Assembly (NCBI GenBank): GCA_902728285.1
Contig: CACVBU010000674.1
Coordinates: 434,001 to 498,000 of the forward strand
Length of the DNA stretch: 64,000 nt
Reading direction: 5' to 3'
From: Clytia hemisphaerica
Taxonomy: Eukaryota; Cnidaria; Hydrozoa; Leptothecata; Clytiidae
The translations under genes were made by a program, and so were the position numbers. The notes below the pieces were generated by a model that was not told the DNA's origin, searched no databases, and saw only the letters and a program-made list of their open reading frames with translations. Of the stretch, positions 6,001 to 63,000 are shown piece after piece. Numbering within the stretch: position 1 is the first letter of the stretch; each line of letters opens with the position of its first letter.

Positions 6001-9000
6001 TTGGCTATCAAGTTTCCAAAACATCAAGTTTTTCTTGCATGACTGATCTTTCTTCCATCACGATTGAAGTAACTTTTCATTCATGTTTTATGAATTTTGT
6101 TACAGAAAAAACAACAACCTGCCCAACAACAGAAACAAGCTGAAAGACCTGCAGAGAGTGTAGAAGCTGATATCAAAATTCACATGCCAGACAGAACACT
6201 CCTCACTATCAAAATATCCAAAAAACAAAGATACGCAAAGATTTATGAAGTATGAAGAATTATATACCATATTACAGTTATTCTAATTCGCGTCGGCATT
6301 CGGCTATTGCTGACACAAATACCGACGTAAATTTGGTTTTTGCCGACGTAAAAGTACTTACTGTACTATAGAAACCATAATTTTTTGCCGACGCATGTAA
6401 ATCAGAATTAGAAAGGATGCATTACTTCTAATCACTTCTGGAATAAGCACCTCTTCTCAATGAAGGAAAAATTCTCAATTAATACCCCCTCAATTAAACA
6501 ACCCCTTCGATTAAATGCCTCCCCTCAAGGGCCATGTTCAGACGTCACGGTTTCGTATCATTCCGGTATGGTTTCTGTTACGGATCGAGAGTGTTCATAT
6601 TGGTTTCGAAACGTTTCGGAGCAAGAAAACGGAGCAGTTCCGTTCCGATGAACATAGAAGAGCGAAACCGTTTCGGTCTGTTTTGCTTTGTAACGTCTTC
6701 TTTTTTTGACGTTCCGAATTTTGACGTTCACACTTGTTTTGGAACCGTTTAAACGGAACAGTAACGTCTAAACATGGTCCAGGAGATGCTTTTATTTGAA
6801 ACAAGCAGCGGTAAGAAAGATTGTTGTGAAGGATAGAATGTTGATATTCTTTCAGAATCAAAACTGATTTTGAACCATAACTAAATTGACATGAATAAAT
6901 CAACTCAAAGAAAATGAATTGAAGTGGCAAAACAAAGTTTCTATTATTTTTTAAGTTAGTTTGGTTTGGTTAGACTCCTAAAAATCAAAGAATTTAATAA
7001 AAGTAAGTCACAGTGCATGATTGGCTGAATATTTATTTCAAGAGTCCTATACAATATGCATGTTCTAATAGCTTTTTTGATTCTGTCTGAGTACCACTGG
7101 ACCATTCACTTTAAAATGTAAGGGCTGTTTAAAATCATTGGTGGTTGTTAGATCAGAAAATGAATATTTTTTAAATATAGTTATCTGATCTAAGCTGTAT
7201 AAAGCTGGGAGTCAAGAATTTGTGCGGTTATCAATTTCCCATATCAATCGAAAATTATTTAAAAGGGGATAGAATGAGATGAATGAGACTTAATATTTTC
7301 GATATTTTAGGCTTTGGTAAAGAAATTGGGCCTATCAGACTTCAGTGCAACATTTTTTGCCATCTTTGAAATCATGGATAAAGGCTTTAGTAAGTACAAC
7401 TTTTTCCTTCTACTTTTGCTTGTCAAATGATTAATTCCTTTTCAAAAATTATTTTTGATTGGTAGAATGATACATAATTCAAACATTGCCAGTTTGTTTC
7501 TTAAAGTCTTTAATAGGTCGTTCTTTTGCCCCATATGCTTAAACTTTTAGGTTTGATTTCTTTTCTTGTTGTTTCATGGGGTACTGGTGTAAATTTATGA
7601 TTACACTTTGTCAAATTTGATCACTCATGGACAAGGATTTGTATTTTCTTCTCAGACAATTATATTTTGATGCAATCTGTGATTTATTTTCCAGCGCGGA
7701 AATTGGAAAGCAATGAATTTCCATACACTCTCTTCAATAAAAAATATCAAGAGTCCGGTACATCTTGCCTCGTTCTCCAGAAATGGGTTTTCTCAATAGA
7801 AAAGGTAAGTAAGTGTTTTCGTACACCCTATCACAGACCCACTGGGACCCCTTCCCACTGGAAAAATCGGCTAAAATGTCGTCCCCGGTGGAAAATTATA
7901 CTCCAATTTTTGTCCTCACTGAAAATTATCAAAGCAATCCTCACTGCAAAATATTATGCTATTATTCCCTGTTGAATTTAGTGATTTGAAAACTAATTAT
8001 ATGGTTGATTACATTTAGCTTAGATTTGTAAAGGACGAGCGGGGTGATAAATCCGTAATAGCCCCGCTTTTTTGTAATCGCCTTGATGTAAACAAAAATT
8101 TCTATTGGTTGAAAGAAAAGTATCGTACGATATTTTGATTGGTTAACAAAATATCGTACGAAATTTTTAAACCAATCAAAATAAGAGTGTCAGTCGAATG
8201 TTTTTTTATAGTTTCGAATGTTTTTATAAGTTTCGAAAAGAATAGCGATTGAGTGTTCTTCAATTCTTTTTTTTACCATATAATTAACGCGGAATAACAT
8301 GGTATTCTCGGGTGATTTTGGATTAATAACCCCTCGTTTCATTGAAAACACTTCAAAATAGCCCTCACTACGTTCGGGCTATTTTGAAATGTTTTCAATT
8401 TTCAATGAACCTCGGGGTTATTAATCCCAAATCACCCTCTAAACCATGTTATTACTAGTACAAAAAAAATTAAATCCCTAGCCATTAAAAAATATGGAAA
8501 TATCAATCCCCCATCGAGTTTCAGTCCGTTATTTCTATCCCGACTGGCTGAAATCCTACCGGGTCTGTGAAAAGGGGTTGTTTACGTCATTAACATGTTT
8601 TTAGGAAACTCATACAAAGAAGAACATTAGCTCAATTGCTAGTGTTATGAGTTAGTGACACATTTCTGCCATCGTCCAAATGATTTTCAATGATTTTCAA
8701 TTACATATACCTTAAAGGAAGAAATTTTGGCGGAAAGAAAATTTGGCGGGTTTGGCGGATTTGACTGAAATCCGCCAAATTAAGTTCCCGCCAAAATTTA
8801 TTTTTTCACCATCCGCCAAATTAAATTCCCGTCAAATTAAACATTTTGAAAATATGATCTCTTTTAAGGTGTTTTTGCTTTTTTTTCGCTGTTTTGACGC
8901 CATCTTAAGGTTAAATTTTTAAGCGACCGCCAAATTGAATTCCCGCCAAATTTAGTTTTTTCGTCGATCCGCCAAATTATATTCCCTCTGAAAAAACTTT

Positions 9001-12000
9001 TTTGGCCATTTGCCAAATTAAATTCCCGCCAAAATTTCTTCCTTTAAGGTTAGCTACTTGTATATAAAAACGTGCCGGTAAAACTCAACTTTTTGAGCAC
9101 ATTCAAAGCTTGAAAAAGTATTCATCTAGGACACTTTTAGAAACGTGAAACCTCTCATACTTTAAAGGGACATTAAAGTAGTAAAATGTAAACATTGCGC
9201 GAACTACGTGTCATTAAAGAGAACAATTAAACTCACGTGTCCAAAACAAACTTGTAAAACAATTGAACAATCAAAATTAGCCATATTTGGTTTGATTTTT
9301 TATTTTGACATGTGACATTTGTTTTGATTTTGTATCCGCTTCATACAGTTTGTTTACAAATTTCGCAAGTACTGTTATGTCCCTTTAATAGCTCGCTTGT
9401 TGAAGGATACATAATAACAGAACTTTGGGTCATTTAAGCGCCGTAATTCTTTCTGTTTCTTTATTTCTTCTTTACCTCGAGAAAAAAACTGACTTTTTAA
9501 AATGAATTTATTTTACTTTTTTTATCAGGAGATTGAAATGTATGAAGACAGCGTAGCAGTAAGCCTTCTATACCATCTTGCTGTTGAAGATATCAGACAA
9601 GGAAGAGTTAAACCAGGCGATAAAATTCAACAAGTTAAAGAATTAAAAGCATCGAATAACAAAGTTAAAGTATTAAAGAATTCTTTTATTTCTAATGGTA
9701 GACATAAATGTATGTATAGAGGACTGAAGCTTTAGTGGGTTACCGAATCCAATTCGTTGTTCATGGCAACCGCACCAGTTACATCTTGAAGACTTAATTC
9801 AATTAATTTGTATGATAAATCCGTGCGCATTGTTCGGCGCTAAGAAAAAACTGGGTGGGAAGCGATCTTCAAAATAAAGTTTCGTTCCTCTTTTTAAAAA
9901 AATTTTTTTTAAACAAACTTTTTCTTTTTCCAGTTTCTAGAGGTAGTACGTACTTTAGAAGGTTACTGTCAAATCATATTTCCACACTGCCAATGTGACG
10001 CAAGGCGAGATGGTCACGTGATCTTAGCCATATCATTACGTCATTTGGCTTTGAAAGCATGCTCTACAGATGGAGTGTTAGAGGTGTGTGTTAACTACCT
10101 GTTGTTAAATACCTTTAATGTTACTCCTATCTCAAGGAGTAAGTTCTTTTCGTGTTTTTGATACTCAACGAGTTATATGAAAATCCTTCTTGCGTTGTTC
10201 TGAACTCGATTACTAAAAATGGTCGTTTGTGATTATCGGTATTATTGAGTTGAATTGTTCATGAACAATTATTATTATTATTGAAAAATATCTACACTAG
10301 AAAACTATCCCACTTCGCGACTTTTTCAAATGTTTAGACCCCAGGTTTTCATGCTCCAAAAACATTCGATTTTTAAGGTCATCTTGTAGAGGAGAACAAT
10401 CGAGTTTGCGTCAGAACACTCGAAAAGAGCTTCTTTATTTCAGAAAATCATCAAAGTGGAACTCATTAAGAAACGGGATTAAGAATTTCGGTTTTTTGAC
10501 GTTTTTAATTCTCATTAGAACCTAGTCCAGTGTCTAAAACCATATTATTGTAATTTTTGTTTTCCATACGCATGTACAGAACATAGACCATACGTTTGAA
10601 TGGAATGAAATAAAGAGTTGGGATGCAGATGACGAGGGGATGTGTTTTTGGTTCGAATATCATAAAGCTGGCAAGAAACCAAAACAAGTTAAAGTTTTTT
10701 CTCCACATGTAAGTTGTAATCCAAACCTGTCTTATAATAACACATAAGTCGACTGAGATAGAGAAAGTTTTCTGACTTTTCAGAACAAAACATTTGAATC
10801 TTGAAAAAACATTCGGAAGCTCGAATTGCAACGTTTTTTTCAAAATCGAACAAGATATTGCATGTACCGTATATATTCCTCCTCCACGTGACGTCTTTTA
10901 GCCAATGAAATTGCGACAATCTCACTGATGCAAGATAAAGAAATTTTAAAGTCATTACTTCCTCGCTAGGAAACTGGTATAGAGTTTACCTGAAAGGATT
11001 GACGTGTCTTGAGCGCGAAGTGGTAACATTAATGCCATTTTTGAAAACACATCTTATGTTAAAGATTGATTTTTATTTTGTTTTTTCTCGAAAGCATTTT
11101 GTTTCGAGTGCATTTTCAAGCAATCTAGAGCTCAAATTTTCAAAATTTCCCCCCTCAGGCCAAACCATGGTTCGCCCTCGCGGTGTCACTAAACTTCAGC
11201 CCCCCCCCTAATATGAAAATGCTTCCTGCGGCACTCTTACATACATATGTTTTGAAGTAAATCCTTCCTGGTAAACTATAACTTGCAGTCTTCTCATATT
11301 TTAAAGGTTGATAGAAAACTATTTTTTTCCGCCATATTCGCCAATAATAGTTTTTCTCTTAAGGTACCTTATTGGCCCTTTTTACGTCGGCCCTTATTGC
11401 GCAAAAGTTCAATTTTTCCATCTTTAGCCCGGCATCAATTTATATCCGATCCCTTACGCCCTCTTACAACAGCTACGAAAAAGTAATGTCAATAAGAATC
11501 GTAGTATAATAGTAGTTTGTTTACCATCTAAGCAGTATGAACTTGCTTTTTCTGAAACAAAAAATAGATAGAACTTCTTGAATATCATCCGTATTCTTTC
11601 CAATCTCTCTCAGAAATATTTGATTCTAATCTGAATCATTTTTTTTAATAATGGCCTGGTATTTTTCAGGCTTTCGTAAGAGGCACAGATCAAGACTATT
11701 TCAATGTTTAATCTTCTTTTTTCAGTACAAATACATGACATCATGCACCAAACGTATACAAAAAGAACTGGAGTGGTGTAAAAAGGTGCTCAAAAATTAT
11801 TCCCAAATATATTTTTGAAGAATACTTATTTGTGCTAAACTGTAGGGGGTGAGTCACAAAAAATCACCCCAATAGCATTTTATAATGAACCCCCTCCATT
11901 TTATGAGATTTTCCTGAAAAAATGCCAAAACCTTCATTTCCCTAAGGTTTTTTGGGAAAATCACCCTCCCCCATTTATGGACTTTTTCCCAGAGTTTTGT

Positions 12001-15000
12001 TTTAACTGTGATATGTGGTCAGGTGTTATTATCTTTCTTATTTTTCAAAGTTTGCTGCCGATCTTTCTAAAATCTAAAACATGGCTAGGGTAGAGACTTA
12101 TACACTTTGGCACTTGTGAATCACAATTCCAACTCAAAAATTTACATTTACATGATGGTTACCGATTACCGATTGCTTGGTTTTAACGTATTTAGTACGA
12201 ATTGGGCTTTTCCAGAAAAAGATTTTACCCCCACTGTTAAGGATATTGATTTTTCGAAATATCGAACCCCCTGGATATCCTACTTTATTAGTAAAGACCC
12301 CCTGGATATCCACTCTTAAAAACATGCTCAGCCTCCTGGATATCCTCTCTTATAAAGATGCTTACCCCTGGATATCGTATTTTTGGACCTACCGGGAGGT
12401 CCTTTAATTTGACCGTTGTCCGTTCGTCTGTTACAAGCTTTTCTCGGGATTGGCTCATTAGGTTTATTTTATTTTTTGCACAATGATACAAAATAGCAAT
12501 GCCTGAAAAGTGACAGAGCCCGATTTTTGAAAAAAAATTTTAGGGGGCAAATTTGGGCCAAAAACTACCTAAAAATAAGGTTTTTTGGACTTTGTGCAAA
12601 ATTGCTTCATTAGTTTTTCCTGATTTTTGGCAGATAAATAGAGTGCAAGGTACCCTAAAATGTGGCTGAAGTAATTTTTCTCGGAAAAGTTTTTTTCGTC
12701 GTCAAATACGGATTTTCGCAAATTTGGGCCAAAAACTACCTAAAAATAAAGTTTTTTGGACTTGGTGCAAAATTGCTTCATTAGTTTTTCCTGATTTTTG
12801 TCAGAAAGATAGAGTGCAAGGTACCTTAAAATGTGGCTGAAGTAATTTTTTTCGGAAAATTTTTTTTCGTCGTAAAATTTTCAAAAAAAGACGACCAAGT
12901 TACACAATGATAAAAGAAAATAAATCAGACGTTTTTACATTGTTCTAAAACTTTGTGTTTGCTCAATACCAATAGTAAAATGTATAACACCTACTTTTAT
13001 CTGATTTTGATCAACAGGTAGGTCCATTCAGCATGTTGCTTGTTTTACTTGAAAAGACACTTTACCCCCTTGATATCCGCTCTCTTGTAGATATTTAACC
13101 CCCTGGATATCCACTTTTGAACAAAAATCGTTAACCCCCTGGATATCCGATATCCTCAACAGGGGGCACGGGAAAAGCCCATTTAAAGTGTCCCTTATTT
13201 TGAAAAACCACCTATTCTTCAGTTTTCTTCATTCATCTTTTTTCTTTGACCATACATAGGATGAAGAAGGAAACCCTGTTTTATTCAAAGAAGAAGATAA
13301 AAGAAGTCATGCAAAGGTGAGTTGTATCTTTTTGAGACTCTTCTTATGAACGTATCTTGATATTTCTCTTGCCATTGTTTATCGGTCATAGAACTTATTC
13401 CTCTGGAGGCCCGGAAAACCCGAGTTACAAAAACTCGAGTTACAAAAACCCGAGTTACAAAAACCCGAGTTACGACGAATGTGACGTCATAAGTCTCAAA
13501 TTATGACGTCATAAGGGAACTTCTTAACTCGAAAAAGTTTTTTACTGTTGTTTTGAAACTCGAAATATTTTTTTTAAATTTTGTTTTAGAGTTACGTAAC
13601 TCGAAAATAAATTTTAAATTTCATTTTTCGAGTTACGTAACTCTAAAACAAAATTTTAAAAAAATATTTCGAGTTATGTTGAAGCGCAACCAAGTTGGCC
13701 AAAAATTCTAAAAAGCGCTTTTTTTCTTTTAGTTTACGAATGAAATTTTTGATCTATAATAAAACTAAAAGAAGAGAAGGAAGGGAATAAAAATGAAAGG
13801 GGGCAGTAAACAATCTTCTATTTTGACAGGAATTTCTGGATTCGATTACTCGAAATACATTTTGTATTCCACAATCTATCTTTGTTAAATTCAAATTCAT
13901 TGTCATTTCGCTAAAAAACTAAAACTTCGGTAGAACTTGTAGTTTCTTTAGTTTTTTCACACATTTTTTTAGAACAAACCATACGAGAACAGAAGGTTTC
14001 GAGGGCTAAAATAGTAACCATAAGTTAAGAAACATTTCTCGACATTTTAAGGCCTTATGGACTCAAAAATTTGCAGAAAATACTCACTTAGGCGAGACCA
14101 ATTTAATTTGTTGTTCTACGGGCAGATCGTTAGCAAAATATGAGTCGGTCGGCCGGTAAAATAAAAATAACATTTTCATTAATCCAAGGAAGGTAATTAG
14201 GCTTTAAGTAATATTTTCAAATAATCTTGGTCGAAAATTCATCATTTATCATTGATGGAGTTTGTAATAAAATCTTTCGTGCATAGAATTCATGATTCTA
14301 GATTATTTTCAACTTTTTTTAAGTGTAATTTTTTTACATGATTATTATTAGAAATTTGTGGCACAGGAAATTCAATATTATTATTTTCTTGTTTGCAGAA
14401 AATGCTGGGTCGGTCGCGCCCGTAGAACAACAAATTAATGTGGTCTCGCCTTAATGCTAATAGTGAAAAAGGAACATTTTAAGAAGATTTTAAGGCTCAA
14501 CTAAAAAACAAAAGATCTGAAGGCTTCGAATTTTTAGATGTTCTTATAAAAACACAACACACATTTCTTTGAAAAGATTCTCGATTGCACAATGTACAAA
14601 AACGATATAATGAATTGTAATCGTTAAGACTTTTCTGATTGTTCAAAATCTTGTTTATGACGTCTGCTCTTTTCTTATTGTTTTGTAAATTAGATCTTTG
14701 ACGCGGTTTCTATAATTTCCAGTTTCTATTCTAATCGGATCTATTGAATCTTCTCGAAAGAAATGGTGTATATTTATTAATAATATGAATTCTAGAATCT
14801 TTGGCCCACTTGGTTTCACCTGAAGATAACTCGAAAGTTCAAATAATGTACTACAATTTCAAGCTACGTAACTCGAAAAATGAAATTTAAAATTTATTTT
14901 CGAGTTACGTAACTCTAAAACAAAGTTTTAAAAAAATATTTCGAGTTACAAAACAACAGTAAAAAACTTTTTCGAGTTAAAAAGCCCACTTATGACGTCA

Positions 15001-16362: not shown

Positions 16363-16696
16363 GGGCGTGCGGGGTTTGCGATTTCCGAAATACCGAATAA
16401 TTTTGCTAAAATTACCGAGATTCCGTAAAAAAATACTTGCAATTCCGATACCGATTTTTGTGGGTATTTTCCCTCGTTTTGACTAATTTTCCATCAAATT
16501 TGATTTTTCATGTATGAATTCCGAAAAAGGGGGATAAAAACTTAATAATACCAAAATTCCGAAGCAAAAATTCATGGATTTCCGATACCGAAACCATTTC
16601 AGCATTCCAAAATACCGAAGGAATTTTGCCCGATTTCTGGAATCCCGAAGAAAAAAGGGTCGATTTCCGCAATTCCGAAATACTGTACGCCCCCAC
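16363..16696. mobile_element. TTCCGAAATACCGA-phrase element with 7-bp target duplication
   Basis: ATGAAGC is duplicated at 16356-16362 and 16697-16703. The homologous sequence at about 28226-28235 reads ATGAAGCAGTTATTGGACAA without the insert, so the insertion is direct evidence. The termini GGGCGTGCGG and TACGCCCCCAC are approximately inverted. The interior holds about twelve TTCCGA/ATACCGA boxes. 334 bp, non-coding. Confidence 0.8.
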
Positions 16697-17344: not shown

Positions 17345-17714
17345 CACGTTTTTTTTAAAGGAACCTGAACTTGGATCCAAGCCTAGAGTTCCTTTTTTTT
17401 CCATAGAATTTAAACCTCGAAATTCCTTATAGAGTTCCTAAGTTTTGATTTGTTAAGTACAGTATGTAACTAATGCATAAAAGTGTAAAATTGATTACAG
17501 TACAGAAAAAGACATTTACTGGACGTTGTTGCGTCAATATTTTGTCACCGCTTTGTTCAGGCTTTTGTAAATGTGAGCAAGTTCAAGTTTTGAACCCCCT
17601 GTTCCTAAGTTGTTTTCTTATTCTCAGCCTGAGCAGTTCCTTAACAATTCCTTATTTTTTGGACCATTTTCAGCCTTAAGTTCCTTATAAACGTATTCCT
17701 TATAAAAAAACGTG
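17345..17714. mobile_element. TA-flanked MITE, AGTTCCTTA phrase
   Basis: TA on both sides (17343-17344, 17715-17716), ends CACGTTTTTTTT and AAAAAAACGTG. The inner end of the terminus (AAAGGAAC) recurs inside as AGTTCC/TTCCTTA about eleven times. 370 bp. Same terminal design as 19834-20204, 38443-38713, 42235-42586 and 49432-49646, but a different phrase. Confidence 0.75.
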
Positions 17715-19491: not shown

Positions 19492-20986
19492 ATGGTGAAG
19501 GTGAATGGAGATGGATGTGTCTTCCCTGGCTGTCCTGTCTATCGTGGTTCTCCCCAATATAAAGGAGTAGGTTTGTTCAAGCTGCTTTCTAGGCCAATTG
19601 ATGCTGAGTGGAAGAAAAATTTGGTGGATGTGATAAAAATATATCGTGTTATTGACAGTGATTTAAAAAAGAGAATTGAGAGATCTAAAGTTTGGATATG
19701 TGGGAAGCATTACAAAGATTCTGACTTTGAGTTTACATTAAGTGGAGTGAGAAAACCAAAGTTAAATGCCTTGCCTACGATCAATCTTCCTGAGAAATCT
19801 CATGAAAAAAGTGTAACTACTCCTCGAAGGGTACATGTTTTTTTTTTTATAAGCATAACGCTTATAAGCATATGAAGGCTCAGATTTGCAGAATTCCTAA
19901 GCATAACATGAGCATATATGTCAGCCTAAAATATTTTTCAAGTGGTCATTTTTAATCTGTTTAAAAAGGTTTGGTAGAGGTCAAGTAAAAAAATAAGACG
20001 GCTAGCTAACATTCCACTGCTCCCAAAATCTGAACAAATTTTTACAAAATTTCCGAAATTTCATTAAAAACTTGGCTCGGTGTGAATCATAAGCATGATT
20101 CTTAAACATATAATAAGCATAAACTATGCCTGGATGCTTTGAGAACTTAAGCATACACGAGCCTGACCAAGGGGCATACACTTGCTTATAAAAAAAAAAA
20201 CATGTACTTGTTCGTGTGCCTCCACCACCTGTTGCAGACCCAACTCCGGTTGTACCAGTGGTTGAAGAAGAAACTGATGTTGAGGTTGTTGTATTTGAAA
20301 CTTATGAGGATTTCAAGAGTCAATGTTCGAAGTGGAAACTTTCTAATTGGAAGGTTGTTTTCACTGGTGAGCAATGCTTTCTCACTTATGAGCTTGAGGA
20401 TTCCAAGTTTTCCATACCAAAACTTGAAATCATTATAAACTCATCTCTTGATTTCACAGTGAGGGTATATGGTTGGTATTTGCCTGATGACCACAATGTT
20501 TACAAACAGCATAACCGGTCCATCAGAAAGATCTTATTAACTGACTTCTGCTCAGATATTTTGAAATTAGAACTTTGTAAAGGTGTTTCTTCTGCCACTG
20601 CTCCAAAGTCAACATTGCATGCTATCCCTCTTAAATATGACAAAGAAGTTCAAGTTCCGTCAGAGATTCGTTATAGAAGTGATGTTTGCGAAGTTCTAGT
20701 TCCAGGCAGTAGAGAAATATGTAGAATTTGTAATTCCTCAGAAAAGAAGAAAGATGTTAAAGACAAAAGTAACCTCACTCCAGCTTCAAAGTTTGCACCA
20801 CTATCAAAGACGAACCCGCAGAAAGTCATCTTAGCCCTGCAACAAGAAAGAGCCCTAACAAAGAAGCTAACGATTGATATTGAACACCTCAAAAATGAAA
20901 TGGAGTCTAAAGGTATTGCTGTTTCATCTGGTATGGCTGATGGTATCAATGCCATTATGAAAAACCATCGATCGATCTTATATTAG
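19492..20986 (+). pseudogene. THAP-domain protein of the P-like element, split by a MITE
   Basis: The first part (19492-19833) starts with a THAP zinc finger: C9-x4-C14, then W, then CGKH (C-x2-H) and ALPTINLP near residue 100, matching the C2CH and AVPTIF pattern of THAP domains, which bind transposon ends in P transposases. The second part (20207-20986) continues in the same frame once the intervening 19834-20204 element and one TA are ignored, giving about 373 codons in total. Residues about 330-360 (QQERALTKKLTIDIEHLKNE) look like a coiled coil. The intervening sequence lacks intron borders, so it is an insertion and not an intron. The present reading frame is interrupted. The RNase-H-like catalytic domain of P transposase is not visible on this strand. 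Confidence 0.75.
19834..20204. mobile_element. TA-flanked MITE, ATAAGCAT phrase, inside the THAP ORF
   Basis: TA at 19832-19833 and 20205-20206. The ends CATGTTTTTTTTTTTATAAG and the complementary CTTATAAAAAAAAAAACATG are inverted. AAGCATA/GCATAA-like boxes occur about twelve times. 371 bp, one base different in length from the 17345 element. Removing it together with one TA keeps the THAP frame open. Confidence 0.8.
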
Positions 20987-22359: not shown

Positions 22360-23872
22360 CAGTATATGGCCCCCAAAACGTTTGATCAAATCTAAAATTT
22401 CTCACAAATCCAGAGGAAAAGAAGTTTTACAAAAATTTGAAAGCCCTTTTTCAAAATTTTCAATTTCAACATTATTTTTCGATCGCTTAGAGAGAGGTAG
22501 CTTTTTTCTAATATCCCCCAAAACGTGGGTTTGCAATTTTAGCGATTTCTCAAGATCTTATTAAAATTTGAACACAGAATTTTGATCATAGTTTGGAAAC
22601 GTGATTTAGAGGGTTTTGAGCATAAAGTTTTTACAGTATACCCCTGGTTGTTAAAATGCAGATTTAGCCCCCCCCCTCCCCCCAAAAAAAACATGGGTGT
22701 AGTTAAAATCAAATTAGAAGCTCAGTTCTAATAGGAGGATACTATGAACATATTTGTGTTTTCCCTTAAATTAAATTTACAACCCAATGGATGTAAAATT
22801 TATGATTTTTATGAAATATTTCTAGATTTTCGATGATTCAAATTCCAAACAGAAAGTTTAGAAACTTAGATTTAACGACGTCTCTATTAAGTTTCTGAAA
22901 ACCACTTTCTTGTATGGAATACTTTAGGCGTAAAGACTTTCGCGAGCAGAAATTTTCGCGATTTTCGCGAATTTTAGCCCTTTTCGCGATAGTAAATGTC
23001 TTTGAAAATTCTTGAGAGGGAAATTCGCGAAAGAATATGCTCGCGAAAAAAAATGTGCAAATAAAATTTACTCAAATTTTCCTCTTTGATGATAAAAAAG
23101 ATAGAATATACTGTAGAAATTATGCAAAATTCTATCAATTGTGGTTTGAGTACATTTGAACGATCAAAACACTGGTTTTATGTACCGAAAACTTGAATTT
23201 TCTACTTGAAATATACCTAATTCGCGAAAGTAAATCTCGTAGATTTCGCAATATTTTGACCTCGCGAAACTTTCTGCTCGCGAAAGTTTGTATGCCTAAA
23301 TTATGCTGTGGAACTTAACTGAAACTGAAAATATTAAGCTTTAAAGTTATTTTTCTCCTATTTTGCAAAAAATGGTAGAATTGGCCGTTTTTGCTGATTT
23401 GAAAATTTTGTATATAATGTTAGTTTTTTTTTATGAACTACTAAGTCAAGCTGGTAGGAACGGAATTCCAAAGATTTTCAGCTGTTTCTCATATCTAGAA
23501 TTTTGTCAATACTGGTTATGGGGCCATCAAAAGACTGGTTGACCTTTAAGATGCTATATCTTTCACCCATATGCATTTGCATTTTCTGAAACGCATTAGG
23601 TGAAGAAAGTTTTCTATAACCCATTTTTAAAACTTATTTTCAATATCCAAGGAACTAGAGTGAGTTATATGCAATTTTTATATAATTTTGGTTTTGTAAT
23701 ATTTTCTTCAGATGCAAATATCTTATTTTGAATCCGTGTTAAACCTTCTAAACCAAACTCATTTTTAAGTATAACCATCATTCTTTCAAAATAAACAAAA
23801 GTTATCTAATTCTGATAAATCTAATCCTCATTTTAATAACGACTTACGTTTTGGGGTCCATATACTGTAATG
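22360..23872. mobile_element. TACAGTATATGG-ended element with CCCCCAAAACG phrase
   Basis: ACAGTATATGGCCCCCAAAA at the left is mirrored by ACGTTTTGGGGTCCATATAC at the right. CCCCCAAAACG-type boxes recur. A diverged reverse-orientation relative spans about 33270-33640. A TTCGCGA-phrase element is nested at 22921-23309. Confidence 0.65.
22921..23309. mobile_element. TTCGCGA-phrase element, nested
   Basis: The ends TACTTTAGGCGTAAAGACTT and GTATGCCTAAATTA are imperfect inverted repeats running into TTTCGCGAGCAGAAA on both sides. TTCGCGA/CGCGAAA occurs about fourteen times. A fragment of the same family is at 62434-62490. No ORF. Confidence 0.7.
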
Positions 23873-24275
23873 TTAATTACTTGATCGGACAAATAAAGTT
23901 TTTGACGAACCAAGGGATTTGGGAACAAATTAATCTTAATGAGATGTTTCAGATGATGTTTCCCGCAGGGGACGGGGGTACTAGGTTTGCGAGATTACGA
24001 GTATATCTGAGCCAAAGTTTGATAATCGGCCCTTGGAGAGACTGAATTTCGAAAACTTTATCCATTTTTTGACGTTTTTGCCATCCTTAGAGAGACTATT
24101 TCAACGAAATTTCAGCCAAAACTTTTAAATTTTAGTCCACTTTTCAAAAAATGTTGACCCTTAGGGGAGTTGATTTCTGATTTTTTTTAATTTTGGAACC
24201 ATTACAAACTCCATTTATTCTTTAGTGGTTTTTGATTTTATGTAAATGTCAAACAGTGAGGTGTGTCTACCCCCC

Positions 24276-24470
24276 GGGGGGGGGGTACTTAGGCAAAATT
24301 GGTGCCGGGTATGTGCGAGCCATAAGGGTACCTTTTCTCATTCCTCAAAAGTCTCTTAAAGGGGTACAAATTCAAAAGTTAGTCTCTGAAAGGGTCCCAA
24401 AATCACGAAAATCAAAAATTTCTCTCTCAAAGGGTCACGATTTCCAAAAATTTTGACCAAAATTTGATGA
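24276..24470. repeat. Poly-G/GGTACT element fragment
   Basis: Begins CCCCGGGGGGGGGGGGTACT then GGGTATGTGCGAGCC, matching the ends of the elements at 31025-31329 and 44172-44494. A CTCTGAAAGGGTCCCAAAA-like phrase repeats three or four times. The right end is not clear. Confidence 0.5.
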
Positions 24471-24649
24471 AAATCAAACCAAAATTTGGAAGAAATGGAC
24501 TAAAATTTAGGAGAAAGTCTCTCACCAGCGAATCTTAACATTTACTAAAATAAGAAAAAAGTTTTTAATGGCAAGTTGTTTCTAGAAAGTGTGGTGGCTG
24601 ATAAAAGAATGACAAAATTTGATTGGTCGTTGTTACCAACTGTCATTAA

Positions 24650-31024: not shown

Positions 31025-31329
31025 CCCGGGGGGGGGGGGGGGGGGGGGGGGTACTACCCTTGTCGACCGACGGGGGTGCTCCGCTGAGGTTCGAAAAATG
31101 GACCCTACGTGGGACTCGAAATTTGCGAAAAAAGTGACCCTGAATGGGACTGAAATTCTCAAATTTTCTACTTTTTCCCCAAATTTTCCAAAAAAAGGCA
31201 CCCTACGAGGGACTGATTTTTCTATTTTGGTGTTTTTGCGACCCTACCTGGGACTCTTGGAGGTTAAAAAAGGTACCCTGACCAGCGGAGCATCCCCGTA
31301 ACCCATCTTGCCCTAGTACCCCCCCCGGG
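31025..31329. mobile_element. CCCGGGGGGGGTACTA-ended element with 8-bp target duplication
   Basis: CTGCGCTT is duplicated at 31017-31024 and 31330-31337. The ends CCCGGGGGG..GGTACTA and TAGTACCCCCCCCGGG are inverted. ACCCTACGTGGGACT-like phrases recur four or five times inside. 305 bp. The long G run makes the exact length uncertain. Overlapping ORFs are repeat-derived. Confidence 0.8.
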
Positions 31330-31339
31330 CTGCGCTTAA

Positions 31340-31700: not shown

Positions 31701-32625
31701 CTGTCTCAGTAACCCGGTTGAGTTTAAAAGCTCAGGTGGCTTGGAAAATAACAGGATTTCATCGGGGTAGCTTTTTTTTTTAATTTCGCGGGGACTTAAT
31801 TTCGCGGATGGCACTATTGGGTGGCAATATTTTCACGATTTTGTGACTTTTACTGTCAAATCATGCATGTTTATTTTTGAAATACACATTTATTCTTTGA
31901 TGTCTTTAAACATCTAAAAAGTAGTTTATTTGACATATTTTGAGTTTTGTTTAGAAAAAATATTTCGCGTATGAGGCCCTTCCAAATTTCCATTGGGACA
32001 CATAAAAGTACTACTAAACCTCAATTTGTGGCTAAGATTTAGTCAGTCCTGGCTCAGAACTGATATAAAAAGTCTTTTTCGGTATTGTTTGGCATTTGAA
32101 TAAACTACGGTCCGAAACAAAAAAAAATGACAACTAAACCAAAAAAAATTCCATTTTGCAACCATCAGGGCCACAATTTTAAATTTTATTAGTTTTACTG
32201 TTGATTTTTTTTTGTTTCGTCGTCAATTTTTTTATTTTCGTCGTTAAAAAATTAAAAGAAAATCTAAATAGCATGTTTCTTAAATGTTTCTTAGTTTTTA
32301 GGCATTCTGAGCCTCATGTTTCTTAAAAGTGTATTTCTTAAAAAAAAAAGACGTGTAAACGCAATAAATAATTCTTCACATGATCGTTTTTCACGACGGC
32401 TGAGATGGCTATCTAAACATATCATAAGAAGTGTTGTCTTCAATGAAGCAAATGGAATATAATAAAAACTCGTCTCTGACGACGTCTTAGACCGCTAATA
32501 AACTATTGCGTCTCTTTCTAAAACCAGTATAGTTTTTGCAAAAGTCTTGTGGGGCTTGTGAGGCAATATACTGAACATGTTTAAAATGTAACATGTTTCG
32601 AATTGTAATCTCACATTCAGAAATA

Positions 32626-37912: not shown

Positions 37913-38251
37913 GGGAGGGGTTTCACGTTTGGCGGAGGAGCGGAATCGGCTCTTTTTTCGGACGGAGTGGCGGAATTTGGCGAAAATTTAGACGGAACTA
38001 CGGAGATTGGGTTCTATGACGGAGACGGAAAATTAGACAATTTTAGTGCGGAAAAACGGAATTTAGCAAAAAGAATTGCGGAATTCCGGAATTGGTAAAA
38101 GATATTCCAAATTTGCGGAATTTTCTACAAAAATATTGAATTTCAAAGGAATTTTCGGTGACGGAATTTTGGTTCAATTTAAGACGGTTTAACGGAAATT
38201 GGAGAAAAAATTGGCGGAATTGCGGAATCGGGTACCCCCTGAAACCCCCCT
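37913..38251. mobile_element. GCGGAATT-phrase element, copy 1, 7-bp duplication
   Basis: TGTATTG is duplicated at 37906-37912 and 38252-38258. Unit B at 43599-43610 has TGTATTCAAGGTCTGGG without the insert. The ends are GGGAGGGGTTTCACG and CCCCCTGAAACCCCCCT. GCGGAATT/GACGGA boxes fill the interior. The ORF 37880-38098 is repeat translation. Confidence 0.8.
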
Positions 38252-38442: not shown

Positions 38443-38713
38443 CACCCTTTTTTTTTTTATAAGAATGGTGTTTTTTTCATTTCATCATGGATATTCTTAA
38501 CTTTTTGGAGAAAATCATCCAAAAATATTCTTACGGTATTCTTATGTTAAGATCGAAGTTGGCAATCTACAGGTTAAAATGCATCAAAAATGACATTCTT
38601 AGGTTCAGTTGCTAAATTCCATGATGGTGATATTCTTACCATATTCTTAATTTTTTGGCCATTTTCATCATGGACATTCTTATAAAGTGTATTCTTATTA
38701 AAAAAAAAGCGTG
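38443..38713. mobile_element. TA-flanked MITE, ATTCTTA phrase, with empty site in unit B
   Basis: TA at 38441-38442 and 38714-38715. Unit A reads AAAATATT-TA-[element]-TA-TGTTATATTGATG; unit B near 43977-43996 reads AAAATATTTATGTCATATTG. The ends are CACCCTTTTTTTTTTTATAAG and AAAAAAAAAGCGTG. ATTCTTA occurs about eight times. This fixes the duplication as TA. Confidence 0.85.
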
Positions 38714-40355: not shown

Positions 40356-40681
40356 GGGGGGGTTCAGGGGGTACCCGATTCCGCAATTCCGCCAATTTTT
40401 TCTCCAATTTCCGTCAAACCGTATTAAATTCCGTCACCGAAAATTCCTTTGAAATTCAATATTTTTGTCGAAAATTCCGCAAATTTTGAAAATCTTTTAC
40501 CAATTCCGAAATTCCGCAAATTTTTTTGCTAAATTCCGTTTTTCCGCACTAAAATTGTCTAATTTTCCGTCTCCGTCAGAGAACCCAATTTCCGTAATTC
40601 CGTCTAAATTTTCGCCAAATTCCGCCACTCCGTCCGAAAAAAGGGCCGATTCCGCTCCTCCGCAAACAGTGAAACCCCCCC
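40356..40681. mobile_element. GCGGAATT-phrase element, copy 2 (reverse), 7-bp duplication
   Basis: TTAATAA at 40349-40355 and 40682-40688. The related sequence at 39670-39690 (GCATTGTTATCAATAATGTT) lacks the insert. Reverse complement of the 37913-38251 family over its whole length, so two independent insertions with different target duplications are seen. Confidence 0.8.
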
Positions 40682-42234: not shown

Positions 42235-42586
42235 CACGCTTTTTTATAAGAATGGTGTAAATCCATTTCATCATGGATATTCTTAACTTTTTTGGGGAAA
42301 TCATCCTAAAATATTCTTACAGCATTCTTAGGTTAGGATCCTAATTCAGACTAGATTTAACATTTAGTACATACGTCTCAAGCATAAAATGACATTTTTG
42401 TGAAAGGAGTGAGCCTTACTTGGGGATAATTGGCAATTTATATTTGAAAATGCTCTAAAAATGGCATTCTTAGCTTGAGTAGCAAAATTCCATGATGGTG
42501 TGATATTCTTAGCATTATTCTTAATTTTTTGGCCATTTTCATCATGGACATTCTTATAAATTGTATTCTCATAAAAAAGAAGCGTG
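42235..42586. mobile_element. TA-flanked MITE, ATTCTTA phrase, unit A
   Basis: TA at 42233-42234 and 42587-42588, ends CACGCTTTTTTATAAGAATG and AAAAAAGAAGCGTG. ATTCTTA occurs about seven times. The allelic insertion in unit B (46284-46577) is shorter, with many small deletions. Confidence 0.8.
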
Positions 42587-43371: not shown

Positions 43372-44171
43372 TGTTCGCTAAAATGTTAAAGTATAAGTGT
43401 TATTTTATGACTTTGTAATATTTTGAGTGAGAGTTTTTGACTTACTGATCAGACGGATTATTCACGAAATCATGATCGAAATTGTTTACACTTGATGTGA
43501 TTCAGCCCCATTTTTTAATTGAAATTTCCTCTCTAGACTTCGTTTAAAATAAATATGTTACTAAATATGATAAACGAATTTTGAATTCAATTTATGTTTG
43601 TATTCAAGGTCTGGGCTCTAATGATGTGTCCATCTGTTGATTGAAAATTTTCTCCATAATTTGTTTAAAATAAATACAAACGAATTTTAAATTGAATCAA
43701 TTTATGTTTCTATTCAATGTCTAGGCTCTAATGATGTGTCCATCTGTTGATTGAAAATTTTCTCCATAATTCGTTTAAAATAAATATAAACGAATTTGAA
43801 TTCAATCATTCTATGGCCTTGGTGTGTCCATCTGTTTGTTGATTAAAGTTTTCTCCTTAATTTGTTTAAAATAAATATGATAAACGAAATTCAAATTCAA
43901 TCAATTTTCAATCACATGAAGTGTTCTTCTGTTGATTAAAATGTTTTCTTTAATTTGGAGCGTGTTAATTTGTATAAAATATTTATGTCATATTGATGAT
44001 GTTTGTTGATTGTTTGAAAAACGTTCCAAGAAGAATGTTTTCGCTGGCTAAACGTTTTCTTTACGAATTTTTAAGAATTCATTAATTTTTTGTAAATATG
44101 CAGTATGGCTGTGCTGTGATTTTATTAAAATTGTTCACAAAAGCTGTAAGTGAAAATCTTATTTCAATCCC

Positions 44172-44494
44172 GGGGGGGGGGGGGGGTACTGGGTTTGCGG
44201 ACTGACAGTATGTGCGGGCCAAAAATTCGCTTTTAAAATTGCACCCTTACAGTGCAGCCCCAAATTTTCGATCCCTTTCGTGCAAAAAATGGTCAAAATT
44301 TTATCATTTCGATCATTTTTTGGTCATAATACTGCATAATATCTAGATTTTTCCAGAATTTTCTGAAATTTCTACCCTTAAAGTGCATCTCTAGTTTTTT
44401 CGACCCTTACAGTGCATTTTAAACATATTGGAAAAGGAACCCTTAGGACCCACACATACCCGTCGGTCCTTTTGCCCAGCTGCCCCCCGCCGGG
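44172..44494. mobile_element. Poly-G element with CCCTTACAGTGCA phrase, empty site in unit A
   Basis: TTTCAATCCC occurs on both sides (44162-44171, 44495-44504). Unit A at 38892-38909 reads TTTCGATCCCAGACTG uninterrupted. Because the element starts with C/G runs, the true duplication is 7-10 bp. The ends GGGGGGGTACTGGGTTTGCG and the complement of GCCCAGCTGCCCCCCGCCGG are similar. CCCTTACAGTGCA-like boxes occur four times. Confidence 0.8.
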
Positions 44495-46283: not shown

Positions 46284-46577
46284 CACGCTTTTATAAGAAT
46301 TGTGTCATTTCCTCTGGTTATTCTTACTTTTTTTGGGCAAATCATCCTAAATTCTTACAGCATTTTAGTTCCTATTCAGACTAGATTTAACATTTAGTAC
46401 CTACTCTCAAGCATAAAATGACTTACTTTGAGGGTAATGACAATTTATAATTGGAATTCTAAAAATGACTTTAGCTTGAGCCAAATTTCTGATGGTGATA
46501 TTCTTAGCTTATTTAATTTGTTGGTCCATTTCATCATGGACATCTTATAAATTGTATTCTCATAAAAAAGAAGCGTG
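46284..46577. mobile_element. Eroded TA-flanked MITE, unit B
   Basis: Same insertion as 42235-42586 with the same junction AAAAGTACACGCTT. About 58 bp shorter through many scattered 1-10-bp deletions, several of which remove ATTCTTA copies. Confidence 0.75.
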
Positions 46578-47209
46578 TAGATAAAAGACTTTTTTGAGAG
46601 GGGGCTCGCCTGGTAAAAGTTTTTATATTAAAAAAATGGACGTTATAGGACAACTCCCGAAATAGGTAAAAGCTTTGGAAATATCTGTTTTTCAAGATTT
46701 CTTCTATAACAATAGTTCAACAACCTAGTACGTACTAATATTGCAAAATATAAATATAACAAAATTACTAAGAAGCAAAAAAAATCAATTTAAACTGCAA
46801 ATATAGTCTGTTTTTTCGTTGACCTTTGCTTTTTATAAGATCATCCAAAATTTTTGATGCCTTCGGATGTTCTTCACTTTTTGAGTTTTAAGCCTATAAA
46901 TGTTCTTAACATATTCTTATTTTCACTATTTTGCACGGCTAAAATGGCTACAAACGGCCAAAAATGAACCCACTTTGGAGGGCTGTACCTTTTGATCTAA
47001 GAAAGATAGAAAAATCTGAAAATATGATTGTGCGAAGTTTCCGTTTTCAAGTTAAAAAAAATCTTCATTTTTAAAATTGTTAAAATTATCCACTTAAAGA
47101 TTAATGCAAGGTTTTTCTTTGAATCATATCTTTTCCCCTTCAAGAGAAATGTCTCAAACGTGCAGATTGCCAATTTTTTAGAACATTTGTATTGAAGTAT
47201 TGAGGCAAA

Positions 47210-47460
47210 CCGATCCAACATTTCATCCAACATGCCTTTTTTCTGATGTTGGATGAAATGTTGTTGGATTGGTTTGGTGGTACTTTTTTTCTTTATTTTT
47301 TGAATTTTAATTTTTTTCCAAGTCATGTCGGATGAAATGTTAGATCGGTTTGCCCCGGCCTTGATTTTTGCTTCATCCAACGCAAATTTTTCCATCAAAC
47401 ATTTCATCCGACATTGGAAAATCATGTTGGATGAAATGTTGGACTGGTTTGCCCTGGCCT
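47210..47460. mobile_element. TTGGATGAAATGTTGG-phrase element
   Basis: GGCAAACCGATCCAACATTT at the left and the complement of ATGTTGGACTGGTTTGCC at the right. TTGGATGAAATGTT or its complement occurs seven or eight times in 250 bp. The minus ORF 46997-47425 is this repeat translated. Confidence 0.65.
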
Positions 47461-49431: not shown

Positions 49432-49646
49432 CACCTTTTTTTTATAAGAACAAACTATGTAAGAACAGAAGTCTTCGATGGCAAAAATGTTAAGAGTAAG
49501 TTAAGAACATTTTAAGGCTTTGCGGACTCGAAAACAGCCAATTTCTTAGGCAAATAGACAAAAATACATAAAAAATGGGGAAAGGAAGAACATGTTAAGA
49601 ACATTTTAAGGCTTCAAGAATTTTGAATGTTCATATAAAAAACGTG
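49432..49646. mobile_element. TA-flanked MITE, TAAGAACA phrase
   Basis: TA at 49430-49431 and 49647-49648, ends CACCTTTTTTTTATAAGAAC and AAAAAACGTG. TAAGAACA/GTTAAGAACAT recurs about seven times. A relative sharing AACAGAAG and GTTAAGAA blocks is inside the MULE-like element (about 13960-14555), there interrupted by the Harbinger-like MITE. Confidence 0.75.
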
Positions 49647-54080: not shown

Positions 54081-54085
54081 GTTCA

Positions 54086-54794: not shown

Positions 54795-55605
54795 AGACCT
54801 TTTTTCAAAGAGGCCACCCTGTTGAATAAACGACCCACGGCATGGCCCGAACATGTTCGGGCCTGTTTGGACCATGCTCGGGCCACAAAATAGTATTATT
54901 GAATCGGCCCGAACATTTTGTTCGAACCATGTTCGGGCCATGTATAGTAGAATTTAGTTTTATTTACCTTTCCTGGTTTATCATCATCCATTGTTAAATA
55001 TTTTCATTAGACAAATTCAAAGTTCCAAATACCAGTTAGATTCACAAAGTTGTATAACAGTACAAAAAACGATACAGAAAAATTCTGCTTCGAATAGGAG
55101 AAGACCACGAGAAAAGGGAACGGGATAAAGAATAAAAAGAAGACCATATTATGTAAGATTCAAATCATTCTTTTTATTTTTCCTAACTTAATTGGAAAAT
55201 AGATGATTAACTTTTATATTTGAACAATATATATTTGAATGAATAAAGATGAAGATTTTTAAATTTGTTTGCTAAAATAAGGAATTTAAAATATAAATAT
55301 TGGGTCCTGAAATTACACGCGCGATCGTAGCAAGTTTTTGAAAATCTGACCCGAACATGGTCCGAAACTGCGCGGGCCACGCGCGGGCCATTTTTAAAAA
55401 GTATTAATCAAGAGGCCTGAACATGTTTGGGCCATGCCATGGGTCGTTTGAATAATTATGTAGTCCAGCAGAAAAACAATGATAAAACCATGCATAATTA
55501 TTACAATATGCATGATACAGTAATTATGCACGGCTCTATCATTGTTTTTATTGCTGGACTACATAATTATTCAACAGGACGTCCTCTTTGAAAAAAGGTC
55601 TATTG
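54795..55605. repeat. Palindromic element split by a phrase element
   Basis: The left arm ATAGACCTTTTTTCAAAGAGG..CCCTGTTGAATAA and the right arm TTATTCAACAGG..CCTCTTTGAAAAAAGGTCTAT are complements, meeting at a TAATTATGCA-rich centre near 55503. The left arm is interrupted at 54830-55447. Confidence 0.75.
54830..55447. mobile_element. GGCCCGAACATG-phrase element with 8-bp target duplication
   Basis: TTGAATAA is duplicated at 54822-54829 and 55448-55455; the opposite arm of the host palindrome (55560-55575) preserves the empty site. The ends ACGACCCACGGCATGGCCCG and the complement of CATGGCCCAAACATG..GGGTCGT are inverted. GGCCCGAACATG-type boxes occur about eight times. 618 bp. 8 bp fits hAT-like insertion. 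Confidence 0.85.
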
Positions 55606-56291: not shown

Positions 56292-56356
56292 TTTCTCAAG
56301 TGTTTCTAACTGTTTTCTAAGTATTTTTCTGAAATTTGCCCGTACCGGTTAAACAG

Positions 56357-60000: not shown

Positions 60001-63000
60001 AAGCATGGCTTGGCAGCAGGTTTTAGGTGCCCCCTAAGAATTCAGGTGACCCCTAAGATTTAGGTAACCCCTGGTTGCCAAATATTTTAGGTGACCCCTA
60101 AGCCAATGACACAATCAAACAAATACAACAGTTAGTTTAGCTTATTGCTAAATAGAATAAATGTCCTAAGAAATAAGAGATAAGTTAAGTACTGAAGGTT
60201 CATGCCATATTATCAAGGTTTTGTAAGTCAGGTTGCAGATCCTTTGCCAGACAGATGTTTATCTAAGTAAATGCAACAGGATTAAAGAATTTTTACAGAT
60301 CAGTGCCATAGGAAGCATTTTCATATTAGGGGGGCTGAAGTTTAGTGAAAAATTTTGAAAATTTGAGCTCTAGATTGCTTGAAAATGCACTCAAAACATG
60401 CACTTATAAGACAATTATGACAAATTAAAAAAGAAAAACTTTGCATTTTGAAAAATAACCATTTTCGAAAAAATTATTGGGGGCATAGCCCCCCTTGCCT
60501 CCCCCCCAGTTGCTACGGCACTGCAGATAATATATTAGATACCAAATTGTTAGTTTTTGAGCATTGCTCAGATTAAAATATAAGATGAGAAAGTGCCAAC
60601 CTATGGTCTGGTAGGCTGCTTATAATTCAATCACCAAACATAGAATCTAGTCCCCAGGTCCATCTGAAAAAAATTAGGTGACCCCTAACATGGTTAGTCC
60701 CCCCTAGCCACAGGCTAAAATCAGGTACCAATTGCTGCTCGACCTTTTAGCCCCCCCCCTCAGGCCAGGGGGGGGGTTCCAGCCATGCAAAGGCGGGACA
60801 AAAATCTGTTTTTTGAAGTTTGCAAGAAAACGCCACATGGAAGATCTTTCAAATTCAATATTTGAAAGAAGGAAAAGGGTAGGTAGAGCAGTGAAAAATA
60901 CAACTTTTCTATTTCCCTTTTTTGCAAAAGTTCTAGGAATGAAAATAAAGGGATAATGATAATTGAATACTATCCACTGATGATCCGCGGCACTATTGTA
61001 AAGCTAGAATCGCTTTGCGAGCGTACTCATCGCTTGAGAAAATGATTGACAGATTAAATTTTTTCACCCCCGCGGGTGTTCTGCGAGCGTTCTCGGCTCA
61101 ATTCTTGGACCGCGCTAAAATGGTAGACTTTGACAGGTCATTTCGATGGAAGTTTTTTGAACGTTTACAAGGCTCTTGACAGAAAATCCTTTGTTTTATT
61201 GTCAATGATGACAGTGCTGTTATTAATTTTGTTAAATCTGACACATTGATGTTTGTAAGTTTTGATTGAAGAATCATATTCTGGTTTTCATGTTATTATT
61301 AGATGCTGTTTTAGAGCTTTAGAGCTAGGCTGACCAGACGGTCGTAATCGATCGATTAGTCAACGATGGATATCGATGAGCAAGGGATTAATTTTGATTA
61401 CCTTGTGGTTCGACTATTATCAATTATTCATCGATTGTCTATCGATGAGTTATCGATTGTTTGTTATCAATGAGCTATCGATCAATATCGATTACCTTAA
61501 AGCATCGATCTTATCGATCTTATCGATTTTACATTGATTATTATCGATTAGATTTTAAAAAAGTAGACTTTTTCGATTCTTCCTTTTTGAACTTTTATAG
61601 GGACTTATAATTTTATCGTATCGATGAATAGCAGAATGACGAATTAGAGAGCATCAACTCAGTAACGTGGCCTGGCTCGACCTGCGTGGTTTTCACACAA
61701 ACGCAATAATGAAAAATTTACCGCCAGATTTAGAAAAAATTATCACTCGAGAAGAAAGAAATGGTGCACTAAGGCTTCACTTTTTCTTGCCGGAGCAAAA
61801 TTGTCTATAATTAGCCTGCCATGCGATTTTTCTAACACTTTGCTGGTTTATTACTTCGTATTTGTATATTACGAAGTGACGTCAATCTTCCGACACGAAA
61901 TCATGAGGGTAGGGATATAACGTTACTTACTCCAACAGGGCAAATTCAGGAAAGTTAATGCTCGCGAAAATTTCTTAATCTTAAAAATCTATAAATCAAT
62001 AAATCAAATATATTTCAAGTTGAAAACTTTCCAAACATTAATAATAGTTTCATGCTGCTTACAACAACAATCGTCAGATGTGAATGAAAATCAAAAACAT
62101 ACTCTTTCTTATCTACAGAAATTAAAAATTTGAAAAAATAGATTTAAGTGTTAAAAAGTGATAAAATGATGCGTGCCTATTTAAAATAATTATCGAGTGT
62201 GATAAAAAACAAAAGGAGTAAAATACTATTATTTGTCCGGTGGGACCTCTTTAGAATCTATAAAAACCCAATCTATCTATAAAAATGGTAGTCGAAATCG
62301 CCAATCTCGGAGTGTTAAAGAGTCTCTCTCTCTCAAAGGAAAACATCAGTTGGGAAAATTGCATGCATTTCAATATAAGAAATGCCGAATCTAAGATCAT
62401 CGCAGCACCTTCCGGGAATTGCGGTATGGACGAAATACTTTAGGCGTACAAATTTTCGCGAGCAGAAACTTTCGCGAGGTCGAACAATTTCGTCATTGGG
62501 TTTGTTGCTTGAGTCATTATGTAATGGTTTCCCTACTAATTTTTCGAGTCAAAATGGTACTGATCAGGAGAGGTAAATTGAAGATTTTATGAAAATCAGC
62601 TGTCATAAAAGTATTAAATAACGAGAATCTCATTTCTTTAAAGTATTGAAATAAAATTTTAAAGAATTCGATAAAACCAATTTTTTTATGAAATGAAAAC
62701 CGCCCCAAAAGTACTTTAACAAACAAAATTTTTCATTTCTTCATAATAGGGTATGGTACAAAACCAACACCTCTTTCACAGAAAGCTGGACACGATATCA
62801 ACTATTTAGCAATGACAGGTGTCTTGTCCATGTTGGGTCAGAAAGGTTTGTTTTTGAAAAATTTTCACTTTTTTGATTTATATGCCCCAGTAAATTAGTC
62901 TTGAAACCTGAAATCTTTCTTATATTCCATCAACTATCTCTATCATTTAAGGCTTGGGGACACGAGAAGTTTTTTTCGCGTTGGTGCAATGCAACATGCT

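Follow-up and report, generated by a model that had tools for sequence, protein, structure and literature searches.

We examined a 64,000-nucleotide stretch of the genome of the hydrozoan Clytia hemisphaerica (contig CACVBU010000674.1, positions 434,001 to 498,000; hereafter the window, in whose own numbering positions are given), which carries a series of compact elements built from many copies of one short word. These elements are probably non-autonomous cut-and-paste transposons, that is, miniature inverted-repeat transposable elements (MITEs), of several superfamilies, and the words of their arrays probably represent subterminal binding sites of each family's transposase, with related MITE families having switched words on a skeleton that was kept. 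The assembly holding the window has 951 contigs and 417,433,876 bases. Element names E1 to E15 follow the order of an initial annotation of this DNA, with E9 and E10 each standing for two listed copies. That annotation counted at least fifteen elements, with a motif private to each family. The array elements are real and the motifs are indeed private, but each word is a variant of one of a few group words, and the fifteen families reduce to a smaller number of groups: E4, E5, E10 and E13 share one skeleton (group A), as do E1 and E6 (group F) and E3 and E9 (group D), and E7 and E11 share their outer ends.

Group F contains E1 (8709..9050), with the word TTGGCGG/CCGCCAA and ends CCTTAAAGG..CCTTTAAGG at TA, and E6 (22919..23304), with the word TTTCGCGA and left-end sites positioned as in E1. 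At the best shift, six of the seven left-end sites of E1 coincide with those of E6. E1 has 39-bp arms of 90% identity and 12 motif copies, with TA at both sides in six of eight copies read; the arms of E6 measure 43 bp (88%), and its TA was seen by eye. A genome pattern in which TTT and the spacer letters were fixed and the five word letters left free gave 1129 matches (590+539), against 32 (13+19) for the reversed pattern. Among 100 rows from this match list, 43 carry identical triples of five-letter words, where 9 would be expected if the slots were independent; 27 of these triples are CGCGA, 14 GGCGG and 2 CGCGG, copies of the same family not being independent of one another. The third word, CGCGG, is unknown from the window and surfaced unprompted.

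The genome-wide copies of group F further indicate that the word changes in concert within an element. A complete CGCGG element (L040, cut at the element end for site and spacer counts) carries 13 exact copies of TTCGCGG and none of the other three words, and L017 carries 12 of TTGGCGG and likewise none of the others. L010 has eight copies of TTGGCGA and one TTGGCGG, and E6 has TTCGCGA only, a word whose count is inflated because it overlaps its own complement. Two positions with two bases each thus account for all four words (TTGGCGG, TTCGCGG, TTGGCGA and TTCGCGA), each near-uniform within the elements read. When L040 is aligned with L017, all 13 sites pair and 12 show the same one-base switch (TTCGCGG against TTGGCGG), 2 of the 65 other site bases differ, and the spacers agree at 176 of 263 positions (67%). 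The same comparison gives 12 of 13 sites switched against E1 (4 of 65 other bases changed; spacers 180/265), 11 of 12 against L042 (12 of the 13 sites alignable; 4/60; spacers 192/264) and 7 of 8 against L032 (8 of 13 alignable; 4/40; spacers 178/205). With spacer divergence taken as the neutral rate, the two L040-L017 counts have probabilities of about 2e-9 and 4e-11, which are guides only; sites may be dependent.

Molecular drive, for instance gene conversion among the short sites or another homogenising process, would also change words in concert, without selection on binding, and the one-base change shared by 12 of 13 sites amid spacers 67% identical speaks for it. Conversion tracts would then need to be about 6-8 bp long and leave the adjacent spacers untouched, and no such process was seen directly; we regard this explanation as decidedly unlikely. 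We propose instead that selection, rather than homogenisation, drives the word switch.

Group A, whose words contain CTTA, shows the same combination of a constant layout and a variable word. It comprises E4 (17345..17714, plus strand; word GTTCCTTA), E5 (19834..20204, minus strand; TATGCTTA), which sits inside another transposon, two copies of E10 with the word TATTCTTA (E10a, 38443..38713, and E10b, 42235..42586, both plus), E13 (49432..49646, minus; TGTTCTTA) and E16 (32240..32357, plus; GTTTCTTA). E16, absent from the initial annotation, is a right end only, ending at 32357; its left end was not found. A decayed copy of E10b, E10c (46284..46577, plus), has its flanks in common with E10b and is therefore a segmental duplicate. 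Already in the listed copy positions, families with different words show identical spacings: the four right-end sites (a to d) are 11, 31-33 and 15 apart (11/32/15 in E16). Identity of the four bases before CTTA was compared in five families with one element each, E10b and E10c being left out and sites being located by spacing. It is 0.867 within an element and 0.444 at the same site across elements, a difference reached in none of 10,000 permutations. Between sites b and c, the spacers of E4 and E10a and those of E4 and E16 are homologous (0/2000 each).

The group A layout recurs in the genome. A pattern with CTTATAA fixed twice and the four variable bases left free matched 3048 places (1527+1521), against 5+0 for the reversed control. 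By eye we selected, among the rows listed, 35 ends with different 8-mers in 34 stretches; this selection is biased towards odd and decayed copies. In these ends the match to site d is 0.721 for site c, 0.593 for b and 0.593 for a, against shuffled values of 0.519, 0.444 and 0.388 that reached the observed ones in 0, 1 and 0 of 5000 trials, respectively. Both inner sites are recognisable in 21 of the 35 ends, and the new words include GATT/AATT (L082).

Group D places E3 (16363..16696, plus; words TTCCGA/TACCGA) with the two copies of E9, E9a (37913..38251, minus; ATTCCGC/CCGT) and E9b (40356..40681, plus). With a single constant shift, 14 of the 15 CCG sites of E3 lie no more than 1 bp from a site of E9a, over about 330 bp. 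In a circular-shift control of 325 shifts, only shift 5 also reaches 14, and it lies within tolerance of the true shift of 4; the next best unrelated shift gives 10 of 15 coincidences. Spacer identity between the two elements is 102/218, against a mean of 0.275 and a maximum of 0.396 at other shifts. In E3 the base that follows CCG is A at 13 of 15 sites, whereas in E9a it is C or T at 17 of 22. Related ends and related interior words, similar within each element, were also recognised by eye in group B, which includes E7 (31025..31329, plus; CCCGGGGGG-GTACT ends, interior word ACCCTACGTGGGACT), E11 (44170..44494, plus; interior word ACCCTTACAGTGCA) and stretches at 23956 and 24262. The last of these, E18 (24262..24545, minus, boundaries approximate; word ACCCTTTCAGAGACT), is a further addition to the initial annotation.

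In several of these pairs site positions are kept within 1-2 bp and the spacers can be aligned; therefore the arrays were inherited and their words changed in place. This bears directly on a mutational origin, in which slippage, template switching or unequal exchange would have copied the terminal word inward without function. The initial annotation had offered slippage or template switching from the termini as one interpretation and had described the copies as not arranged head to tail. That description does not hold throughout: tandem modules measure 42 bp in E1, 34 bp in both E2 and E7, and 15 bp in E8, E9 has repeated CCG spacing modules, and local tandem duplication has indeed built some modules. 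As a general cause, slippage or template switching finds no support, given the conserved positions. Positions and spacers are common to families with different words, which indicates that the arrays predate the split of the families, and the aligned six-mers differ at only 2 of their 65 other bases, against 33% of spacer bases. We consider a purely mutational origin very improbable.

Copies were initially described as lying on both strands, which stands for E1, E6, E12, E14 and E15, where orientation is mixed (the words of E6 and E15 being near-palindromic), but most arrays run one way. All copies found lie on one strand in E2, E4, E7, E8, E9a, E9b and E11, and all with a single exception each in E3, E5, E10a, E10b and E13. 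The one-way orientation of most arrays also argues against a hairpin or foldback function.

We further asked how often words of the terminal arms recur inside their own elements. Eight-mers were taken from the arms only and counted in the interior with one mismatch allowed, for 18 intervals including E0 and repeat copies. Fourteen of the 18 counts exceed all of 100 dinucleotide shuffles (E12 being reached by 0/100), but the E11 count is reached by 39 of 100; those of E6 and E13 are reached by 2 and that of E0 by 5. A stricter control used 292 windows of 340 bp elsewhere in the stretch, with counts scaled per 250 bp. Here 11 of the 18 intervals are matched by at most 7 of the 292 windows, E5, E6 and E9a by 15, E4 by 37, E2 and E14 by 79 and E11 by 158. 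In a cross-matrix of arms and interiors, 11 of the 18 intervals score highest with their own interior. Chance repetition is ruled out by the shuffles, the other windows and the reversed-pattern controls, except for E11; this rejection is weak for E0 in the shuffles and for E2, E4 and E14 in the window control. The equation of interior motif with the element's own terminal motif is thus borne out in most families but not in E2 and E7, where the best arm-derived word differs from the named motif; in E2 the arm test was unspecific for the named word. As in Ac and Hermes, a short word repeated near both ends equals or adjoins the terminal repeat. E7 and E11 depart from this, their named motif being interior with merely a partial copy near the arm.

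Evidence for past mobility comes from target duplications, which are exact in all 13 elements examined, element boundaries having been set with the duplications in view. The suggestion that several elements moved as units, and that TA, 7-bp and 8-bp target types are all represented among them, is supported in both respects. TA duplications flank E4, E5, E8, E10a, E10b, E10c and E13, a single TA being weak evidence at only 2 bp. Duplications of 7 bp flank E3 (ATGAAGC), E9a (TGTATTG) and E9b (TTAATAA), and duplications of 8 bp flank E7 (CTGCGCTT), E11 (TTTCAATC) and E14 (TTGAATAA). Empty paralogous sites were found in the window for six of the 13 elements queried: E3 (near 28220), E9a (several), E9b (39624-39697), E10a (43912-44044), E11 (38845-38965) and E14 (in an inverted copy at 55508-55612). 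The 13 elements measure 215-618 bp, a size typical of MITEs, and inverted arms are present in most elements. For E15 the arm alignment returned an ATCGAT-type match only, and for E3 a chance match in the flanks, the short imperfect arms of E3 being read by eye. Copy numbers are likewise those of MITEs where counted (E1, group A and group F); E1 has 39 further copies at 92-97% identity (40 scored among 2018 first-look genome candidates).

The initial annotation had called for a search for autonomous relatives, and one element of the same design that encodes a transposase was found, but none with the window words in an array at the loci read. The DDE_1 profile PF03184 matches the genome at 77 places, of which eight loci were read. 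At one of them, C239, open pieces with matches to HTH_psq, HTH_Tnp_Tc5, DDE_1 and PHD are flanked by copies of GTCCGGAATTAGAC. Exact matches to this 14-mer number 10 in the 417 Mb (reversed control, 1): five at C239, four around another DDE_1 match at C687, a sister copy found through the word search, and one elsewhere. Comparison of C239 and C687 delimits a common element of about 3.8-3.9 kb, 96-97% identical, with differing flanks and TA at its ends. Its near-perfect terminal repeats, GCGTTCACTCGTCTAATTCCGGACG, have the element's own word at their inner end, and the word occurs at eight places per stretch (at most two mismatches), one of which, at C687 and with two mismatches, is in the gene region. 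The element combines an HTH domain (read at C239) and DDE_1 with a TA duplication and terminal repeats, as pogo-like elements do; DDE_1 together with HTH_Tnp_Tc5 and TA is a combination we take to be of pogo/Tigger type. No array is claimed for the other seven loci, some of which have short flanks.

Three stretches, L097 and L099 among the DDE_1 loci read and L039, were considered as carriers of a partner transposase and set aside. L097 carries merely a neighbouring E10-type end. L099 has a group A-like scrap close to a start codon, and the 2 kb read further on contain no right end; the array word of L099 itself differs, and therefore no partner is claimed. L039 is a TTCGCGG copy with no right end within the stretch read, and it showed no partner.

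The initial proposal that the words are transposase-recognition sites is nevertheless supported by the presence of the word in the terminal arm of most families, by conserved distances to the ends and by the transposase-coding element of the same design. The one-base changes shared by nearly all sites, together with a constant spacing and a site inside the terminal repeat, agree with what would be expected of a protein whose preference had changed. We propose that the element bodies are mostly the two end regions of a larger element, fused, and that the transposase or transpososome responsible for moving the family would bind the word through its DNA-binding domain. Each terminal repeat would contain one word, in most cases at the inner end, with further copies inside at fixed distances. 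Several short sites near the ends may gather transposase molecules, as is known from Ac and Hermes, and we suggest that their spacing is kept because the complex needs it. If a lineage came to rely on a transposase whose specificity had altered, almost all working copies of the word would change as well, and related families would thus keep the skeleton and differ in the word.

Several observations weigh against this proposal. At the eight DDE_1 loci read, of 77, no transposase carried the words of groups A, B, D or F or that of E8. The word of the C239/C687 element differs from that of every window family. An array was present at one of the eight loci and was noticed by eye, and a 9-mer test did not single out C239 (8, against a shuffled maximum of 8); in that test L092 and L094 surpassed their 20 shuffles by a single count. 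L010 retains one TTGGCGG of the old type, and switches are therefore not always complete. In group A the b-c spacers lack homology in several pairs, such as E5-E10a (480/2000) and E10a-E13 (400/2000), and 14 of the 35 ends have one or both inner sites unrecognisable (fewer than three of the four CTTA letters). One of the six E3-E9a spacer blocks is at chance level (11/37). In E7 and E11 the interior word does not form the arm, and E15 (61335..61640), rich in ATCGAT, is without a clear terminal repeat.

The words might alternatively be targets of a second element-encoded protein, such as an anti-silencing or regulatory factor of the VANC type, rather than of the transposase. The precedent lies in VANC21 and VANC6, for which family-specific short motifs are reported at high density in the non-coding parts of their own VANDAL elements, motif and protein changing together (PMC5735166; PMC10398659, for the parts of both sources used here). 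The Clytia word is found in the terminal repeat of most families, with copies at constant distances from the ends, and an element of this design harbours a transposase gene that has DNA-binding domains of its own. The VANC targets, as far as the portion of PMC5735166 used here describes them, are tandem repeats in introns and upstream regions. A second-protein explanation is therefore unlikely, and recognition by the family's transposase is preferred.

Comparison with known systems, made here from parts of each cited source, places the Clytia elements among several partial parallels. That transposon ends can carry several binding sites is known, and this has been described as a convergent trait across superfamilies (PMC3573991). 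In the hAT element Hermes, BED domains bind subterminal repeats, numerous short sites that lie towards either end, cluster at the tips and are arranged asymmetrically; several hAT elements need far more than their tips to move (PMC10368747). E7, E11 and E14 resemble hAT elements in their 8-bp duplications (3/3), a likeness that rests on duplication length. The Hermes motif AAG(T/C) is 4 bp long, whereas the Clytia words span about 6-15 bp with positions kept across families, and the TA and 7-bp groups depart from the 8-bp duplication of Hermes. Maize Ds1 (about 400 bp) is, like the window elements, short and non-autonomous and shares with Ac little beyond the terminal repeats and copies of the transposase-binding hexamer AAACGG, but at least three hexamers are found in only 17 of 331 Ds1 copies, and related families with switched words are not described in the portion of PMC3260210 consulted. 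VANDAL elements of Arabidopsis also accumulate family-specific short motifs in non-coding parts that change with the protein, but these are tandem repeats read by an anti-silencing protein rather than end-tied sites at fixed spacing (PMC5735166).

Galileo and Foldback elements likewise carry internal repeats inside their ends and secondary transposase-binding sites, but their units are about 200 bp and their ends much longer, and the part of PMC3573991 drawn on does not describe word switching. The aligned arms of the window elements, at 9-43 bp, fall outside this long-terminal-repeat type, except for E12 (65 bp). The coral CMITEs are families of small elements in an animal with a common internal design, but they have TTAA duplications, a conserved internal block and variable terminal repeats, and a motif array is not described in the portion of PMC2872659 at hand. 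Pogo/Tigger-type elements share the TA duplication, and the C239/C687 element joins such a transposase to the array design; a kinship of groups A and F and of E8 to this type would rest on TA and design only. We met no description, in the literature searched, of words switched in place by one base at nearly all sites of a retained skeleton, with all four combinations of two positions present in one genome.

The remaining array elements of the window fall outside the groups above. E2 (12200..13186) has seven copies of CCCCCTGGATATCC on one strand and hosts another, nested repeat at about 12395-13040 (by eye). E8 (32626..32977, plus) has ends CAGTAG..CTACTG at TA and eight copies of TTCGAATAACCGA, all on one strand. 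E12 (47204..47453) has five copies of GTTGGATGAAATGTTG in mixed orientation, and E14 (54830..55447) carries the word GGCCCGAACATG. A solo left end of the E6 family (62434..62500, plus), also absent from the initial annotation, was recognised by eye. Group A, group B and ATCGAT-type stretches are also present in a 60-kb sample from six other contigs. Further word-array stretches of like appearance were seen at L057:6812-6970 and L054:6440-6740 (GGGGCGCTTATTCGA and CCTAGGAAA), and L055:5300-5540 is ATCGAT-rich and resembles E15.

The window has a G+C content of 34% and holds many transposon remains. The transposon hosting E5 (18950-22200), presumably THAP/P-like, has a minus-strand open reading frame at 21397-21915 with a weak BED finger match (21.2 bits; cut-off 20.6), and comparison within the window finds related terminal stretches at 45723-46027 and 41895-41978. 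Adjoining mobile elements, degenerate simple-word arrays of AAGTAGTAA and AAAAAGTC type lie at 31337-31695 and 39287-39496. Nested inverted repeats of 108 and 84 bp, rich in TTTCCGG and with 100% complementarity, occupy 39721-40131. Tandem units of 178 and 188 bp are found at 1138-2851 and 18 repeats of a 42-bp unit, 93% alike, at 50334-51091. A run of 565 N bases spans 48679-49243, and the first exon of an alpha-methylacyl-CoA racemase gene lies at 57070-57426.

A joint change of specificity in a transposase and its many sites is difficult to envisage, since any single step ought to spoil the fit between them. The Clytia genome offers related families in high copy number whose words differ, at almost every site of a common skeleton, by one or a few bases. 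Word switching may be a general mode by which element families split, proceeding in place by single-base steps at nearly all sites with spacing and spacers kept, and acting as a lock-and-key code that makes families orthogonal to each other's transposases; we offer this wider proposal tentatively. Such families can be sought by searching for the spacing and the constant letters with the variable word letters left free. How the words changed, in what order the sites did so and what part spacing plays are all readable and testable in the Clytia families.

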